Shown here: piece after piece, positions 1 through 18,890 of the stretch
Position numbering within the stretch: the stretch's first letter is position 1
How the letters are laid out: each line of letters begins with the position of its first letter
Source of the DNA: Candidatus Omnitrophota bacterium
GTDB taxonomy: Bacteria > Omnitrophota > Gorgyraeia > Zapsychrales > JAHFFX01
Reading direction: 5' to 3'
DNA length: 34,800 bases
NCBI GenBank assembly: GCA_023247705.1
Contig: JAHFFY010000018.1
Span: 1 to 34,800 of the forward strand
Made by a program: the position numbers and the translations under genes
Notes under the pieces: generated by a model
Told to the model about the DNA's origin: nothing
Databases searched by the model: none
What the model saw: only the letters and a program-made list of their open reading frames with translations

Positions 1-1
1 C

Positions 2-388
2 ATACTCAAGATGGAGTGGTTTAAGCCTGGGGCGATTGTTTGCGATCTTGCCTATCCAAAAAACCTTTCCTACAAATCGACCCGCAAAGATATTTTTGTT
101 TTTTCAGGGGGTCTAGCTTCAGTGCCGACGCCGATTAATACGGGAAATGATATCGGTGTCCCGTCTTCTGATGTGTGCTATGGATGTTTTTGCGAAGTGA
201 TCATATTGGCCCTGGAGCGGCGTTTTGAAAATTTTAGTTTCGGCCGGGGAAATATTACTCTGGAAAAAATGGATGAGATTAGAAAAATGGGGATTAAACA
301 TGGTTTTGAGCTGGCCCCGTTTTTCTGGGCGAAGGGGTTGATCACAAAAGAGGATGTTGAAAATATAAAAAGAGCCGCAATGGTTTAG
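2..388 (+). CDS. Acyl-ACP-reductase-like NAD(P)-dependent dehydrogenase, C-terminal part
   Basis: Open frame entering from the left edge, so only the last ~128 residues are present; the first visible Met is not necessarily the start. The text KPGAIVCDLAYPKN, then a Gly-rich turn, then YGCFCEVIILALERRFE and a closing helical tail ending in KEDVENI, resembles the C-terminus of cyanobacterial-type long-chain acyl-ACP reductases (AAR) and related shikimate-dehydrogenase-fold proteins. Those enzymes reduce acyl-ACP to fatty aldehyde through a cysteine thioester; whether the cysteine-bearing part is intact cannot be judged here. It lies 34 bases upstream of an NAD-dependent reductase gene and in the same direction as the two ketosynthases, which suits a lipid-modifying cluster. 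The family call is by recalled motif similarity; another Rossmann dehydrogenase is possible. Confidence 0.6.
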   Translation: MLKMEWFKPGAIVCDLAYPKNLSYKSTRKDIFVFSGGLASVPTPINTGNDIGVPSSDVCYGCFCEVIILALERRFENFSFGRGNITLEKMDEIRKMGIKHGFELAPFFWAKGLITKEDVENIKRAAMV

Positions 389-2373: not shown

Positions 2374-4530
2374 ATGTTTTCTCCCTCTAATTATTTTTTT
2401 AATATTCATGCCTTGCCATTCTTTGTATCGGGAGCTTTAATTACGATTGAGGCCGCTTTTGTTTATTTTCAAAATAGAAAATCTCTCATCAATATTGGAT
2501 TTGCAACTGTTACAGTTTGCGCGGGGTTTTGGCTTGTTGGGATCGGATTAATTTATTCTTCCTCGCATGAAACAGCCGCCCTCATCTGGTCGCGGTATTT
2601 TTGCTGGCTGGGCATTATATTTATTTCACCAAGTGTTTATTTATTTTCTACAGTATGGAAAGATAAATCATTGAAGAAAGCAAGGCCAGTGATACTTTTT
2701 AATTATACTGTCGCTCTTGTATTTTATGTGATTTGTATTGCCACTTCTTCGCTTGTGAAGGGATTATGGTCGTATTCCTGGGGTTTTTATCCCAAGGCTG
2801 GAATGGTACAGAATTATTTTATGGTTTGGTATGTTATTCTTATGATATTATCGTTTCGTAATTTTATTCAGAATTATATATATGAAGACGTTGAAATACA
2901 TAAAAAACATACCGGATTTGTTATTTTGGCGTTCATATTCGGTGGGATTGGCGGATCCTTAGATTATTTAGGAAATTACGGTATTGCTCTTTATCCTTCT
3001 GGTAGTTTTTGCGTTTTATTGTTCTCCACAGTGATTGCATACTCCATCGTTAATTATCGATTGATGGACATTGAGACCGTTTTGCATAAAACAGCCCTGT
3101 GGATTTTGTCTTTCTCTTTGATCGTGGTTCCGATCCTGATGGTCTACCAGTGGGTTTTCCCTCACATAAAAAGCTCAACTGTTCTTCAATTCATTTTTGT
3201 ATCCCTCTATTTTGTTGTCTTTGCGGTTTATTTACGTTTGATCCAGCCGAAAGTCGACCATTTCTTCCAGAGGCGCAAGGCAAATTTTGAAGAAATTTCT
3301 AATCAATTTATCAGTGATTTGGTTCATTTGAAAGGCCTTGACAGCCTTATCCAGCGGCTCGAAGAAACTATTACTAATACTTTGTATCCGCAAGGGATCG
3401 ATATCTTTATTTATGATGAAAAAAAAAAGAATTATCATATGATTAATAGGAATGCGGCGGCAAATCGGGTGTCTCAATTTCCGGTTGGAAATGAATTTTT
3501 GATATGGTTAAATAGGAATAATAGTATTGTTCATAAAGAGTTCGTAGACACTGATCCGAAATATGCTGCCATCAAAGACGTGGCCAGGGATTATTTTGAT
3601 TCCACAGGGGCCATGGTGGTGATCCCTTTGGTTTTAAACGAACGGTTGCTAGGGGTTATTAACTTAGGAAAGAAGGCAAACTTAAGACGTTATAACGCGG
3701 TGGATTTTCATTTCTTAACCACCATGAAAAATCAATCGGCGATTGCTATTTCCAATTCACTCATTTATCAAAATATCGAAGAGCAGGTTAAAGAGAGAAC
3801 GAGAGAATTGGTCGAAGTGCAGAAACAGCTTGTTCAGGCCGAAAAATTAGCCACCGTCGGTACCCTTTCGGGTGGCGTTGCCCATGAAATCAATAATCCT
3901 TTAACTGCGATCTTGACTAACGTTCAGATGCTTCTGACATTTAGTGAAAGCACAGACGCAAAAATGGACAGGGAGGCTTTGGAGATCATTGAAGAAGCCA
4001 CGCAACGCTGCCGGACAATCGTTCAGAAAATGATGGCCTATGCCAAAAAGCCCCTGGAATCCGATCAGGTGGCCAAGATAGATCTATCTGATGTCTTGCA
4101 AAAAGCGGTCTCCTTTATTAATTATCAGTTGGAACAGGACAGTATCCAAATTGATATTGATGCGCATCAATCCCCTTATTCGGTTATGGGAAACGGGAAT
4201 GAACTGGAGCAGGTTCTGACAAATTTGATTTTAAACGCCCGCGATGCCATAATGGAGACTAAACAAAAGGGAAAAATTCAGATAACTCTTTCCAAGAATG
4301 AAAGGTATATCAAGGTTAGAGTTAAGGATGAAGGAATTGGGATCTCGGAAGAGCATATGGCCAAGATCTTTGATCCATTTTTTACAACCAAAGATGTGGG
4401 GAAAGGATTGGGTTTGGGCCTTTCTATTTGTCAATCTATCATTGAAAAGCATCAGGGACAGATTACGGTCGAATCAAAGCCAGGGGAGGGGGCTGCGTTT
4501 ACCGTCCATTTGCCCTGGTATTCCGGTTGA
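2374..4530 (+). CDS. Membrane sensor histidine kinase with 7TM-type N-terminus and GAF domain
   Basis: A 718-residue kinase. Residues 1 to ~295 carry about eight to nine hydrophobic helices (for example around [17 protein letters not shown] and FILAFIFGG-like stretches), resembling the 'histidine kinase N-terminal 7TM' class. Residues ~310-470 read as a GAF domain, followed by a short coiled linker ([18 protein letters not shown]). The H-box [11 protein letters not shown] places the phospho-accepting His at 504; the N-box is [10 protein letters not shown]; the G boxes are DEGIGI and GLGLGLS, ending FTVHLPW. Layout recalls PrsK-type kinases, but the cognate regulator here has no output domain. 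A receiver gene follows 94 bases later. Placement between the reductase genes and the ketosynthases suggests control of that cluster, which is inference. Confidence 0.92.
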
Positions 4531-5029: not shown

Positions 5030-6262
5030 ATGGAAAAACGTATTGTGATTACAGGGATTGGGGTTGTTTCTCCCAATGGGGTAGGAAAAGATGATTTCTG
5101 GCAGGGCATTAAGAAAGGCCGGTCAGGCATCAAGCCCATCACCATTTTTGATCCCAGTTTTTATAAAACAAAACTTGCCGGAGAAATCTCGGATTTTTCT
5201 CCGGAGGAATTTTTAGGCTCACAGGGGCTGAAAAATTTTGACCGGGCAACCAAGCTTGTTTGCTCGGCCGCGAAACTTGCATTAGACGATTCCGGATTTC
5301 AAATTACTGAACAAAATACGGAGGATGTCGGGGTCGTCACCGGAACAACGCTTGCTTTTTGGAGTATCGCCGAGATAAGTCGCGAAATTGTGGAAGATGG
5401 CCCGCAGTTCACAACGGCAGGTATATTTGCCGGCACAACGATCAACAGCGTTTCCAGCCAAATTTCGATTCGTCATAACATTAAGGGATTTAACAGTACG
5501 ATCTCAACGGGGTATACCGCCAGTATGGACGCGCTGAAGTATGCGGTGAATTTTATTAAATTGGGTAGGGCTAAAGCGGTTCTTGTGGCCGGAGTTGAGG
5601 GCTTGACATTTGCGAGCTTTACCGGATTTTATAAAATTGGATTTCTCGCGGGTATTAACGGCGAAGAGGTGTCCTGCCCGTTTGATAAAAGAAGAAACGG
5701 AATAGTCCTGAGTGAAGCGGCCGGTGTCATATTGATTGAGGAGGAAGAGCACGCGAGGGCGAGGAAGGCCAATATTTATGCGGAACTGGCTGCGGTTGAA
5801 AATACATTTTATGCCTTTCGTGCTGCAAAATATGACCCGAAGGCAAGGGGTATTACTAAGACCATGTTCAAGGCCCTGGATAACGCGGGGCTGCAGGAAG
5901 AAGAAATTGATTATATTTCGGCTTCTGCCAATTCGGTTCCGCAACAGGACATGCTGGAGACCATGGCCATCAAGGAAGTTTTTAATATCTATGCTTCCCA
6001 AATACCGGTGAGCGCCCTTAAATCCATGGTGGGGGAAAGCGTCAGTGCCGCAGGCGTTTTGCAGATCGTGGCTGCGATCGGGTCTTTGCAGCAATCGTTT
6101 ATTCCTCCAACGATTAATTACAAAGAAAAGGATTCTGCGTGCGACCTGAACTATGTGCCCAATACCGCACAGAAGATGGATGTTGAGAATATTTTGATCA
6201 ATAATTTCGGTCCTGGAGGTAGCAACGCAACTGTTATTATCAAAAAATATAAAAGTGGATAG
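5030..6262 (+). CDS. Degenerate beta-ketoacyl synthase (chain-length-factor / KS-beta-like)
   Basis: A 410-residue thiolase-fold protein of FabF type from VITGIGVVSPNG at the N-terminus to the C-terminal NNFGPGGSNATVIIKK. All three catalytic positions are replaced: the nucleophile Cys is Tyr162 (in ISTGYTASMDA, where active enzymes read STACASS), the first His is Ser299 (ISASANSVP, normally NAHGTST) and the second His is Glu336 (KSMVGESVSA, normally KSMxGH). The structural Lys331 and Gly-rich elements are kept, so the fold seems intact and the frame is undamaged. This is the pattern of KS-beta/chain-length factors of type II polyketide and aryl-polyene systems, which pair with an active KS-alpha. 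The next gene is exactly such an active partner. The order (beta before alpha) is the reverse of classic actinobacterial clusters. Confidence 0.88.
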   Translation: MEKRIVITGIGVVSPNGVGKDDFWQGIKKGRSGIKPITIFDPSFYKTKLAGEISDFSPEEFLGSQGLKNFDRATKLVCSAAKLALDDSGFQITEQNTEDVGVVTGTTLAFWSIAEISREIVEDGPQFTTAGIFAGTTINSVSSQISIRHNIKGFNSTISTGYTASMDALKYAVNFIKLGRAKAVLVAGVEGLTFASFTGFYKIGFLAGINGEEVSCPFDKRRNGIVLSEAAGVILIEEEEHARARKANIYAELAAVENTFYAFRAAKYDPKARGITKTMFKALDNAGLQEEEIDYISASANSVPQQDMLETMAIKEVFNIYASQIPVSALKSMVGESVSAAGVLQIVAAIGSLQQSFIPPTINYKEKDSACDLNYVPNTAQKMDVENILINNFGPGGSNATVIIKKYKSG

Positions 6263-6309
6263 GATGGAGACTCAGGGATCATACAATAATGTTTAGGAGT
6301 AAGATCAAC

Positions 6310-7527
6310 ATGGGAAATGAGGGACGACGGGTTGTAGTTACCGGAATAGGAATTGTTTCTTCGGTCGGCATTGGCCGGGACGCCTTTTGGGAGTCGATTA
6401 TTAATGGCAAATCCGGCATCAGCGAAGTCACCTCGATAGATACATCAGGATACCGGTGTCATCGGGGAGGAGAAGTCAAGAATTTTAAACCGGAAGATTA
6501 TATTTCCAGAAGGAAAATCAGGTTTTTGGGACGATCCTCCCAGTTGGCCATTGCGGCCGGATCACAGGCCCTGACTGACGCAAAGTTGATCAATAAAGAA
6601 ACTGTCCAGCGGGATATGGGTGTGGTTGTCGGAACGACAACAGGCGAGCAACCTCTTGAACAATTGTTGTCGGCTTGGGCTAAGGGCGGATTGAAAAATA
6701 TTGACCGAAATAAAGTTTTTCAAGCCGCGGCAAATAATATTTCAGAAAATGTCGGTATGGAATTTAAGACATGTGGGCAGAATTATCTTATTCCCACGGC
6801 CTGTGCTGCCGGCAATTACGCGATCGGATGCGGGTATGATTTGATCAAGAGCGGAGACCTGAATTTTGCTCTGGTTGGTGGAGCGGATGCCTTCTCAACG
6901 GTTGCCTTTACCGGTTTTCAGAGGATTTACGCGATGTCTCCCGATGTCGTGCGTCCGTTTGACAAGAACCGGAAAGGAATGATGCTTGGCGAGGGAGCTG
7001 GGATGCTTTTACTGGAGACTTACAAATCGGCGGTTAAACGCGGCGTTCATATCTATGCCGAAATTTTAGGCTACGGCCTTTCCTGCGATGCCTTTCATGC
7101 CACCGTCCCGAACTCCCGAGGGATCAGCAGGGCCATGGAAAAGGCTTTGCTTGAAACGGGTTTGACATACAAGGATGTGGATTATATCTGCGCGCATGGG
7201 ACAGGCACTGTTTCGAATGATAAGACGGAGTGCCAGGCCATCAAAGATGTCTTTCAAGAGCGGTCCAAGGAAATTTTGGTCAGTTCTATAAAATCAATGA
7301 TGGGGCATCCTATGGGCGCGTCATCGGTCATTGAAGCCGCGGCCTGCTGCCTGGCTGTCCAAAACCAGATTGTTCCACCGACGATCAATTTTGAAAATCC
7401 CGATCCCGAGTGCGATATCGATTGCGTTGCCAATAAAGCCAGGAAGACGAAAATCAGGATTATCCTGAATAACGGTTTTGCTTTTGGCGGGAATAATGCA
7501 TGTGTCGTTGTAAAAAAGATTGAGTAG
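6310..7527 (+). CDS. Beta-ketoacyl-ACP synthase, FabF/KS-alpha-like, catalytically intact
   Basis: Elongating condensing enzyme that joins malonyl-ACP to an acyl chain. I choose ATG 6310 because AGGAG sits ten bases before it; an in-frame ATG at 6289 adds seven residues and has no ribosome site. Counting from 6310, Cys165 (PTACAAGNYA), His296 (CAHGTGTVSNDKTE) and His333 (KSMMGHPMGA) form the complete triad, and the GEGAG and C-terminal FGGNNA loops are normal. Length 405 residues is usual for FabF. It follows the catalytically dead ketosynthase by under 50 bases, suggesting a heterodimer. A housekeeping FabF is less likely, because fabG and fabZ lie 8 kb away and no acpP is adjacent. Confidence 0.9.
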   Translation: MGNEGRRVVVTGIGIVSSVGIGRDAFWESIINGKSGISEVTSIDTSGYRCHRGGEVKNFKPEDYISRRKIRFLGRSSQLAIAAGSQALTDAKLINKETVQRDMGVVVGTTTGEQPLEQLLSAWAKGGLKNIDRNKVFQAAANNISENVGMEFKTCGQNYLIPTACAAGNYAIGCGYDLIKSGDLNFALVGGADAFSTVAFTGFQRIYAMSPDVVRPFDKNRKGMMLGEGAGMLLLETYKSAVKRGVHIYAEILGYGLSCDAFHATVPNSRGISRAMEKALLETGLTYKDVDYICAHGTGTVSNDKTECQAIKDVFQERSKEILVSSIKSMMGHPMGASSVIEAAACCLAVQNQIVPPTINFENPDPECDIDCVANKARKTKIRIILNNGFAFGGNNACVVVKKIE

Positions 7528-15470: not shown

Positions 15471-15479
15471 AACGGCGAT

Positions 15480-15519
15480 GGGCCAACCCCCGATCGGTAA
15501 AATTCCGAAGGGTTGGCCC
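15480..15519 (+). terminator. Strong hairpin after ribE, without a T-tract
   Basis: GGGCCAACCC (15480-15489) pairs perfectly with GGGTTGGCCC (15510-15519; two G-T pairs are not needed), and TCGG/CCGA pairs inside the loop. It begins ten bases after the ribE stop, at the place of an operon terminator, but GGGCGTCCC follows instead of a run of T. It may stabilise the 3' end, or terminate without a U-tail. Confidence 0.5.
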
Positions 15520-15649
15520 GGGCGTCCCTTCAATCATCCGGTATGTGACGATCGTTTGATAAAGTTGATTTTTTCGTTATTGTAGGATAGGATAAGCGTA
15601 AATTTTTTACTCCCCAAAACAATGAAAACAACAGCGTGAGGTATGATTC

Positions 15650-16405
15650 GTGAACGAACTGACTTTAAAGGATAAAGTCGCGGTTGTCACCGGCGGCACC
15701 CGCGGGATTGGGCGGGCGATCGTCGCTATGTTGGCTCAATCGGGATGTCAGGTCGCTTTTAATTATCAGAAAAATAAAGAAGCCGCTTTAGCCTTGGAAG
15801 AGGAACTAAAAAAAATTGGGTGTCGCTCACAATCGAGATGTGTCGATATGAAAGATTTTGAAGCGGTCAAATCCTGGATCGAAGAAATAAAAAAACAATT
15901 TGGCCGGATCGATATTTTGGTTAATAATGCGGGGATGATTATTGATAAAGCCCTGATGCTGATGGGCCGGGAAGACTGGGATCAGGTGATCGATACGAAT
16001 CTGGGCGGTCTATTTAATGTCAGCCGTGCGGTGATCGTCAGTTTTTTAAAACAGAAAAGCGGGGATATTGTCAATATCTCATCGGTCAGCGGCCTCATCG
16101 GGTTAAGCCGTCAGACGAATTATTCGGCGAGCAAAGGCGGCGTTAACTCTTTTACCAAGGCCCTGGCCAAGGAAGTCGCGGCCTACGGGATCCGCGTCAA
16201 TGCCGTTGCGCCGGGATTTATTGCCACCGAGATGCTGGAAGGATTCAACGAAGAGCAGAAAAACCAGATTCTTAAAGAGATTCCGTTGGGGCGTCTCGGC
16301 TCGGTACATGACGTGGCCAACTGCGTCAAGTTTTTGTTAAGCCCGCAAGCACAGTATATCACCGGCCAGGTGATCTGTGTCGATGGCGGGATGACGATGC
16401 GTTAA
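15650..16405 (+). CDS. fabG: 3-oxoacyl-ACP reductase
   Basis: NADPH-dependent reductase of the fatty acid elongation cycle. GTG start at 15650, supported by GTGAGGT nine bases before it. Rossmann motif TGGTRGIG at 14-21, NNAG at 92-95, then the catalytic Ser145, Tyr158 and Lys162 (NISSVSG, NYSASKGG). The C-terminus ITGQVICVDGGMTM is that of true FabG. 251 residues. fabZ follows 39 bases later. A possible weak promoter (TTGATT around 15566, TAGGAT 17 bases later) lies in the 180-base gap after ribE. Confidence 0.93.
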   Translation: MNELTLKDKVAVVTGGTRGIGRAIVAMLAQSGCQVAFNYQKNKEAALALEEELKKIGCRSQSRCVDMKDFEAVKSWIEEIKKQFGRIDILVNNAGMIIDKALMLMGREDWDQVIDTNLGGLFNVSRAVIVSFLKQKSGDIVNISSVSGLIGLSRQTNYSASKGGVNSFTKALAKEVAAYGIRVNAVAPGFIATEMLEGFNEEQKNQILKEIPLGRLGSVHDVANCVKFLLSPQAQYITGQVICVDGGMTMR

Positions 16406-16444
16406 GATTTACAGGAAAAAAATTTCCCAGAAGAGGAGAGGTTT

Positions 16445-16879
16445 ATGCAACTGGATGCCCTTGAAATCAGGAAGATTATTCCGCACCGGTTTCCTTTTTT
16501 GCTGATCGATAAAGTGGTCGAGATCCGCCCGAACGAAAAGCTGATCGCGATCAAGAATGTCTCGATCAACGAACAATTTTTCACCGGACATTTTCCCGAG
16601 GAGAAGGTGATGCCGGGCGTTTTGATTGTCGAGGCGATGGCCCAGGCCGGGTGTATTTATTTTTATTACAGTAAAAATCTTTTCGGTAAAGAGATCATCT
16701 ATTATCTGGCGAAGGTGACCGCGAAGTTCATGGCCCCGGTTGTCCCGGGCGATCAGCTGCGCATCGAGGTGACCACCATCAAAATGATGCCCAAGGTCGG
16801 GTTCCTCAAAATGGAAGCCTTTGTGGCCGACCAAGCGGTCGCCGAGGCACAGATTGGTTTTAGCGTCAAAGAAGTTTGA
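16445..16879 (+). CDS. fabZ: 3-hydroxyacyl-ACP dehydratase
   Basis: Removes water from 3-hydroxyacyl-ACP in fatty acid synthesis. 144 residues, single hotdog fold. HRFPFLLIDKVVEI at 14-27, catalytic His49 in FTGHFPEEKVMPG and Glu63 in VEAMAQAG are all present. A GAGGAGAGG ribosome site precedes the ATG. It pairs with fabG upstream, and tRNA-Pro begins 23 bases after its stop on the same strand, so the tRNA may be cut from a read-through transcript. Confidence 0.95.
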   Translation: MQLDALEIRKIIPHRFPFLLIDKVVEIRPNEKLIAIKNVSINEQFFTGHFPEEKVMPGVLIVEAMAQAGCIYFYYSKNLFGKEIIYYLAKVTAKFMAPVVPGDQLRIEVTTIKMMPKVGFLKMEAFVADQAVAEAQIGFSVKEV

Positions 16880-18364: not shown

Positions 18365-18637
18365 ATGACTCATACGATTACGTTAAAAGAACTACGGCCG
18401 GAATTGCCCAAGGTGTTTGATGACATTGATAAAAAGTGGGAACGTTATATTGTGACCAGACATGGCAAACCATCGGTTGTGATGTTGAGTGTCGAAGACT
18501 ATGAATCCTTAATGGAGACGCTTGATATCTTGGCTGATCCGAAGGCGGTCAAAAATCTTAAGCAAGGTGAGGACGATTTACGGAAAGGCAAAACCCGCAG
18601 TTGGCAGGAGATTAAAGCACACCTTGAAAAGCTATAA
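18365..18637 (+). CDS. Type II antitoxin, Phd/YefM family
   Basis: 90 residues. The N-terminus TITLKELRPELPKVFDDI and then RYIVTRHGKPSVVMLSVEDY is the Phd/YefM fold that binds DNA and would repress its own operon. The C-terminal part is charged and helical (LKQGEDDLRKGKTRSWQEI), as expected for the toxin-neutralising tail. GGAGGTGA lies just before the ATG. It overlaps the toxin gene by 14 bases if the toxin starts at TTG 18624, the usual coupled layout with antitoxin first. Confidence 0.9.
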   Translation: MTHTITLKELRPELPKVFDDIDKKWERYIVTRHGKPSVVMLSVEDYESLMETLDILADPKAVKNLKQGEDDLRKGKTRSWQEIKAHLEKL

Positions 18638-18890
18638 ACTGGAACTGACCCGTCAGGCAGAATCAATCCTCGAACATATCGCGCGCCGTGAACCCGATTT
18701 TTATCGTCGTATTGCAAAGGTTTTGGATGATCTTCAAGCAGATCCTTTCATCGGAAAGCAACTGAAAGGAAAGCTTAAAGACCGTTATTCCTATCGTGTT
18801 GGTTCCTACCGCATCATTTATGCGATCATCAAGAATGAATTGTTGGTGATCGTGATCGACATCGGGCATCGAAGGGATGTTTATCGGTAG
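18624..18890 (+). CDS. Type II toxin, RelE/ParE superfamily mRNA interferase
   Basis: About 88 residues. I propose a TTG start at 18624, because the in-frame ATG at 18522 lies deep inside the antitoxin gene and adds about 34 residues that do not belong to the family. The body YKLELTRQAESILEHIARRE, LQADPFIGKQLKGKLKDRYSY-type segment, VGSYRIIYAII and IDIGHRRDVYR is RelE-like, with the closing GHRxxVY and basic residues used to cut ribosome-bound mRNA. It should be held inactive by the antitoxin. The exact start is uncertain; a GTG was not found nearby. Confidence 0.88.
   Translation: MKSYKLELTRQAESILEHIARREPDFYRRIAKVLDDLQADPFIGKQLKGKLKDRYSYRVGSYRIIYAIIKNELLVIVIDIGHRRDVYR

Follow-up and report, generated by a model that had tools for sequence, protein, structure and literature searches.

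Why should a bacterial genome keep, directly ahead of an intact ketosynthase gene, a second one whose product has lost its entire catalytic triad? The question is raised by two adjacent genes in a 34,800-nucleotide stretch of DNA (the window), which is the whole of contig C12 in a Candidatus Omnitrophota genome of 2.4 Mb and 91% completeness. A preliminary description had read them as a KS-beta and a KS-alpha, and had pointed to the beta-first order and to a Tyr at the nucleophile position as departures from classic clusters. Is the first protein a decaying copy, an enzyme with new chemistry or a subunit? With what does it pair? How did the two genes come to lie where they are?

A degenerate ketosynthase and its intact neighbor

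The features concerned are as follows.

5030..6262, + strand: KS1, degenerate ketosynthase (KS-beta), 410 aa, with Tyr162/Ser299/Lys331/Glu336
6289..7527, + strand: KS2, active ketosynthase (KS-alpha), 412 aa, with Cys172/His303/His340 counted from ATG 6289
6293..6297, + strand: AGGAG, ribosome-binding-like, preceding ATG 6310

Both reading frames (5030-6262 and 6289-7527) are unbroken, and the N and C domains of the Pfam ketoacyl-synthase families score above cut-off in both proteins, which are 34% identical to each other. In the alignment, Tyr162, Ser299 and Glu336 of KS1 occupy the Cys-His-His columns and Lys331 is retained, whereas KS2 has the complete triad (Cys172/His303/His340 in ATG 6289 numbering). 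The residues described earlier for KS1, in an intact frame, were thus confirmed by the ORF check, Pfam and the alignment. So was the full triad of KS2, for which the earlier positions Cys165/His296/His333 had been counted from ATG 6310; this is the likelier true start, because the AGGAG precedes it. The cut-off of the FabF equivalog TIGR03150 (493.75) was reached by neither KS1 (348.5) nor KS2 (417.8).

Among 50 aligned Omnitrophota homologues of KS1, the nucleophile position holds Phe in 36, Tyr in 9, Ile in 2, Met in 2 and His in 1, so that Phe or Tyr is found in 45; the first-His position holds Asn (30), Ser (10), Ala (6) or a few others, and the second Glu (48) or Asp (2). The Lys, and the Asn that follows the first-His site, are invariant. 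Since the triad is absent from all 50 and the same Asn/Lys/Glu-or-Asp set recurs, its loss is not a matter of chance. Purifying selection on KS1 and KS2 is about equal (pN/pS 0.21-0.22 vs 0.16-0.20, a rough measure as synonymous sites are saturated in the window comparisons), and dN/dS is 0.11 for a close pair of KS1 genes, one from a one-contig genome (G257) and one from its sister. KS1 is not decaying. A pseudogene copy on its way to being lost would agree with the missing triad and with some recent gene loss and rearrangement near the locus; the intact frame, the purifying selection and a degenerate signature conserved in tens of genomes reduce its probability to almost nothing, and on these conservation and selection data it was rejected. 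The same data led to rejection of an active KS1 that uses Tyr as nucleophile or some other new chemistry. The strictly conserved Asn-Lys-Glu/Asp set with an aromatic residue at the nucleophile site might suggest such an enzyme, but the homologues mostly have Phe and some Ile, Met or (in PDB 9s5h chain C) Val, none a usable nucleophile, and both decarboxylation histidines are lost, which makes it hardly credible. The aromatic residue is indeed unusual beside classic clusters, as the preliminary description held, but Phe and Val at this position were reported in 2009 for anammox FabF paralogues (PMC2649909). The Phe/Tyr-Asn-Lys-Glu signature offers a sequence test for beta subunits of this type, distinct from aromatic chain-length factors (CLFs).

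An AlphaFold2 model of KS1 (pLDDT 84.6, pTM 0.89) has the FabF fold intact (TM about 0.9). Residues 109-139, its low-confidence stretch, may be where the subunits of the dimer touch; low confidence there is usual for a subunit folded alone. When the model was used for a structure search, FabF entries led and 9s5h was not among the best 50 listed; the search thus speaks for the fold and not for kinship.

Kinship and pairing of KS1 and KS2

The solved homologues are found in PDB entries 9s5h and 9s5i, which together hold eight chains of each of two sequences, with an ACP chain also present in 9s5i. Among PDB chains, KS1 is matched best by 9s5h chain C and KS2 by chain B. In trees with SH-aLRT supports from quick searches, KS1 and chain C form one clade (100), and KS2 falls with chain B and Iga11 (95). 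Chain C carries Val163, Asn298, Tyr300, Gly302, Lys328, Glu333, Gln342 and Arg392, which is the set printed for Kuste3606 by Rattray 2009 (PMC2649909). Because all eight residues match, we infer from them, and not from the PDB record, that chain C is Kuste3606 or an orthologue; Gln345, Lys331 and Glu336 of KS1 are the equivalents of its Gln342, Lys328 and Glu333. For the L042 cluster, ACP and FabZ alike have their best PDB matches in the ACP and FabZ of one entry, 7qv0, which we take to be an anammox entry. By sequence we class KS1 and KS2 with the anammox ladderane candidates, as a KS-alpha/KS-beta pair that has highly reducing type II polyketide synthases (PKS) among its relatives.

KS1 is not nested among active FabF enzymes in the trees, a placement named beforehand as one that would speak against a beta subunit. 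KS1 was expected to cluster with chain-length factors, but the aromatic type II CLFs that were tested group with another KS-beta of the window's own genome (contig C35), KS1 forming its separate clade with support of 100. It is very improbable that KS1 is itself the CLF of an aromatic type II PKS. The KS-alpha/beta arrangement and the SRPBCC domain in the linked reductase would suit such a role, but there is no cyclase/aromatase cluster within the window, KR and DH genes accompany the pair in relatives, and the trees, which separate KS1 from aromatic CLFs, led to its rejection.

The C35 locus (L008, 3639-10871) is a second, different KS-alpha/KS-beta pair, accompanied by an ACP of its own, a B12-type radical SAM-like protein and several that are SRPBCC-like. 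The triad positions of this KS-beta, which falls with the aromatic CLFs, hold Arg/Asp/Asn. Such pairs are common in the order.

Does KS1 belong with KS2? Among 352 Omnitrophota genomes, KS1 is found in 93, KS2 in 84 and both in 74 (Fisher odds ratio 97, p 1.8e-46). Where the two are linked, that is, within 15 kb on one strand, KS1 precedes KS2 in 69 of 70 pairs. Pairwise distances for KS1 and KS2 correlate with r 0.55 (maximum 0.26 over 5,000 permutations), a value that still includes shared species history, and point to co-inheritance. The beta-first order, put forward as unusual, is so beside classic clusters but is the rule here. The earlier interpretation stood in part: co-occurrence, gene order, tree congruence and the solved alpha/beta homologue give good support to a KS-alpha/KS-beta pair with a non-catalytic partner, and the aromatic-CLF affinity fell away.

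We think it quite unlikely that KS1 functions independently of KS2, binding acyl-ACP as a homodimer or partnering the housekeeping FabF, with the KS2 pairing secondary. About 19 of the 93 KS1 genomes have no KS2 match at the threshold used, and in order relatives KS1 stands solitary in the riboflavin operon with fabG-fabZ. Three KS1-only genomes (G007, G010 and G022) also have no fabD match, and therefore the contig bearing KS2 is probably missing from them. In at least two, the absence of KS2 is not easily explained by missing contigs: G051 has its fab operon with fabD, and G257 is in one contig and retains KS1 under the purifying selection noted above. Against independence stand the strong co-occurrence and tight gene order, the congruent distances and the 1:1 solved homologue.

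Gene neighborhoods and origin of the linked pair

Upstream of the pair lie the island genes, and downstream of it genes of a riboflavin operon.

1..388, + strand: SRPBCC + acyl-ACP-reductase gene (AAR, TIGR04058-like), C-terminal part; N-terminal part on the end of contig C16
423..1436, + strand: NAD-dependent epimerase/dehydrogenase, HpnA-like (EPI), syntenic in L042/L113
1363..2340, + strand: formyltransferase-fold protein (FMT), start probably downstream of 1363
2374..4530, + strand: sensor histidine kinase of the island, syntenic in L042/L113
4625..4999, + strand: CheY-like response regulator of the island, syntenic in L042/L113
15471..15649, no strand: ribE-fabG gap with hairpin, the KS1 site in relatives, empty in the window
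15650..16405, + strand: FabG-type ketoreductase of the riboflavin operon, candidate KR partner
16445..16879, + strand: FabZ dehydratase of the riboflavin operon, candidate DH partner

The reductase is TIGR04058-like with a score below cut-off. Because its gene is split across both, contigs C16 and C12 appear to be neighbors, in agreement with the conserved gene order on either side. C16 also carries (L156:1087-2388), at the far end of the inserted island, a FadL/TodX-type outer membrane transporter that perhaps moves a lipid product.

The closest cluster (L042/L113) runs from acyltransferase, acyl-ACP reductase, epimerase, formyltransferase, kinase and regulator to FabG, KS1, ACP, FabZ, KS2, KS3, a desaturase-like gene, kinase and regulator. 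The window retains the reductase-to-regulator order, followed directly by KS1 and KS2. ACP, FabZ and desaturase are not beside the window pair, nor is FabG adjacent, and no desaturase match was found in the genome; in relatives ACP, FabZ and desaturase lie alongside the pair (e.g., L042/L113, L116), and FabG-KS1-ACP-FabZ-KS2 layouts also occur. The ACP/FabZ/desaturase neighborhood is a trait of the cluster and not of the KS pair. Most order relatives have a solitary KS1 in the riboflavin operon, between ribE on one side and fabG-fabZ on the other, and their KS2, where found, mostly follows plsX-fabH-fabD-fabZ. Other lineages have the set behind a TCA/lipB-type operon (gene names by sequence recognition). 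For Omnitrophota MAGs, antiSMASH calls of ladderane-like clusters have been published (PMC9902471).

Candidate ACPs of this genome lie on contigs C15, C35 and C40. The one on C40 adjoins, as judged by eye, a FabV-like enoyl reductase gene (L164:1471-3168), and both are candidate partners of the KS pair. On C15 (L010:3100-3102, minus strand), the housekeeping FabF gene has an in-frame TAA exactly at the codon of the conserved Lys in S-T-K-S-M-T-G-H; the cause may be misassembly or a genuine truncation, and the latter would raise the importance of KS2. The window also holds a toxin-antitoxin-like pair (18365-18890; Phd/RelB-like and RelE-like, by eye).

How did the window come to have a linked pair? 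The closest named relative is a Candidatus Omnitrophota MAG, at 71% for KS1. Identity of KS1 reaches 71-72% with members of other families as against 48-49% within its own; for KS1 and KS2 together the values are 71-77% to other-family members vs about 48-51% to the same-family genome G001. Both proteins nest with the same few genomes (support 99). At 15471-15649, the riboflavin-operon site of the native KS1, the gene is absent and no remnant was detected. On contig C50, next to menaquinone genes, an N-terminal stub of FabZ (L157:3712-4020) abuts KS3 and a kinase; in a relative (L134) the matching place is taken up by FabZ, one more gene, KS2, KS3 and the kinase, and the stub is apparently the deletion scar of the native KS2. 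On C32 no fabZ-KS2 follows fabD, and a transposase-like fragment is found there instead (by eye). GC3 is 0.34-0.41 in the island genes upstream of KS1, 0.49-0.52 in KS1/KS2 and 0.49-0.66 in the riboflavin operon from RibBA to FabZ. Horizontal acquisition of a linked KS1-KS2 pair, replacing native genes that lay apart in the riboflavin and fab operons, would account for the identity pattern, the nesting, the empty rib site, the C50 stub, the state of C32 and the GC3 values, and is probably what happened; the direction and number of the transfer events are what we infer from comparison.

Proposed role and comparison with known systems

KS1 and KS2 likely form a condensing heterodimer of the Kuste3606/Kuste3605-like type, in which KS2 condenses and KS1 is non-catalytic, encoded by a horizontally acquired linked pair. 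The growing acyl chain would sit on Cys172 of KS2, and His303/His340 would decarboxylate malonyl-ACP. KS1, folded and paired with KS2, would be incapable of acyl loading or of malonyl-ACP decarboxylation. With all three catalytic residues lost, KS1 is most simply read as a structural component of the dimer and its acyl pocket, the part that other beta subunits are known to play (PMC8358021); by analogy with these, it would line the acyl pocket, aid ACP docking and set chain length. The partner enzymes are guesses, since the window pair has no adjacent ACP, FabG, FabZ or desaturase of the kind seen in its closest relatives. The nearest candidates, FabG and FabZ of the nearby riboflavin operon (15650-16879), would reduce and dehydrate in each round, and since the cluster has no enoyl reductase dedicated to it the double bonds would be retained. 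Release of the chain as aldehyde or alcohol would fall to the linked acyl-ACP-reductase-like protein, the aldehyde being suggested by the reductase family (TIGR04058-like). The product would thus probably be a polyunsaturated acyl chain. Desulfotalea has fab clusters in synteny with the Kuenenia ones and produces C31:8 and C31:9 hydrocarbons, not ladderanes (PMC2649909), which is a lead, though not a test, for polyunsaturated chains as the shared output.

A broader reading, which we regard as doubtful, makes KS1 part of the basic lipid machinery in many Omnitrophota, as a transferable beta subunit located in riboflavin or other housekeeping operons. It would be partnered by KS2 or, without it, by FabF, so that fatty acid synthesis is diverted to polyunsaturated membrane lipids, and the ladderane pathway of anammox bacteria would be one specialized offshoot. 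To our knowledge, the biosynthesis of ladderane lipids is unsolved. Across Omnitrophota this dead/live ketosynthase pair recurs in many arrangements, often with no radical SAM genes adjacent, which makes it possible to ask which genes build the unsaturated chain and which the rings.

How does the pair compare with other systems? Like the KS/CLF of aromatic type II PKS, it couples an active and a dead ketosynthase, but it belongs to a separate clade, is beta first and has no cyclases. Aryl polyene ApeO-ApeC is, like the proposed KS1/KS2 pair, a KS-CLF heterodimer, and makes polyenes; ApeC is about half size with a single thiolase domain (PMC8358021), whereas KS1 has 410 aa and both Pfam domains. 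The E. coli CFT073 stretch examined as an aryl-polyene reference did not contain the cluster.

In ishigamide-type highly reducing type II PKS (Iga11; PDB 6kxd), KR and DH steps are expected as for KS1/KS2, and KS2 groups with Iga11 (SH-aLRT 95). Iga12 (6kxd_B) was not among the best 60 PDB matches of KS1. The Iga-like Streptomyces plasmid clusters seen are alpha first, and have a short degenerate ketosynthase (L161:6423-7532, L162:6369-7253) with an Iga11-like one, whereas KS1 is full length. These short proteins score 70-73 bits with the KS1-family profile vs 22-39 with those of FabF, KS2, KS-alpha and aromatic CLF; only the profile scores were used, as their long branch makes the tree position weak. 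The second ketosynthase of these clusters groups with KS3, with a long-branch warning, and was given no weight.

The pair is of a kind already known from anammox bacteria, where the non-canonical FabF Kuste3606, and also Kuste2805, is found with the FabF Kuste3605 (PMC2649909, PMC4790861). Like KS1, the Kuste3606 type is a dead beta with an aromatic or aliphatic residue at Cys, the Lys kept, Glu at the second His and Gln at 342; Kuste3605, like KS2, is the active alpha subunit; and kuste3603-3608, like the clusters of KS1 relatives, includes ACP, FabZ and a phytoene-desaturase-like gene. In contrast, the window KS1 has Tyr/Ser where Kuste3606 has Val/Asn at the Cys and first-His positions, and the window pair, from another phylum, is beta first and is not beside an ACP, FabZ, desaturase or radical SAM gene. 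What is new is the beta-first order, seen in a different phylum and throughout it, the beta genes within riboflavin operons of relatives and, as the comparisons suggest, the exchange of separate native genes for a linked pair gained by horizontal transfer.
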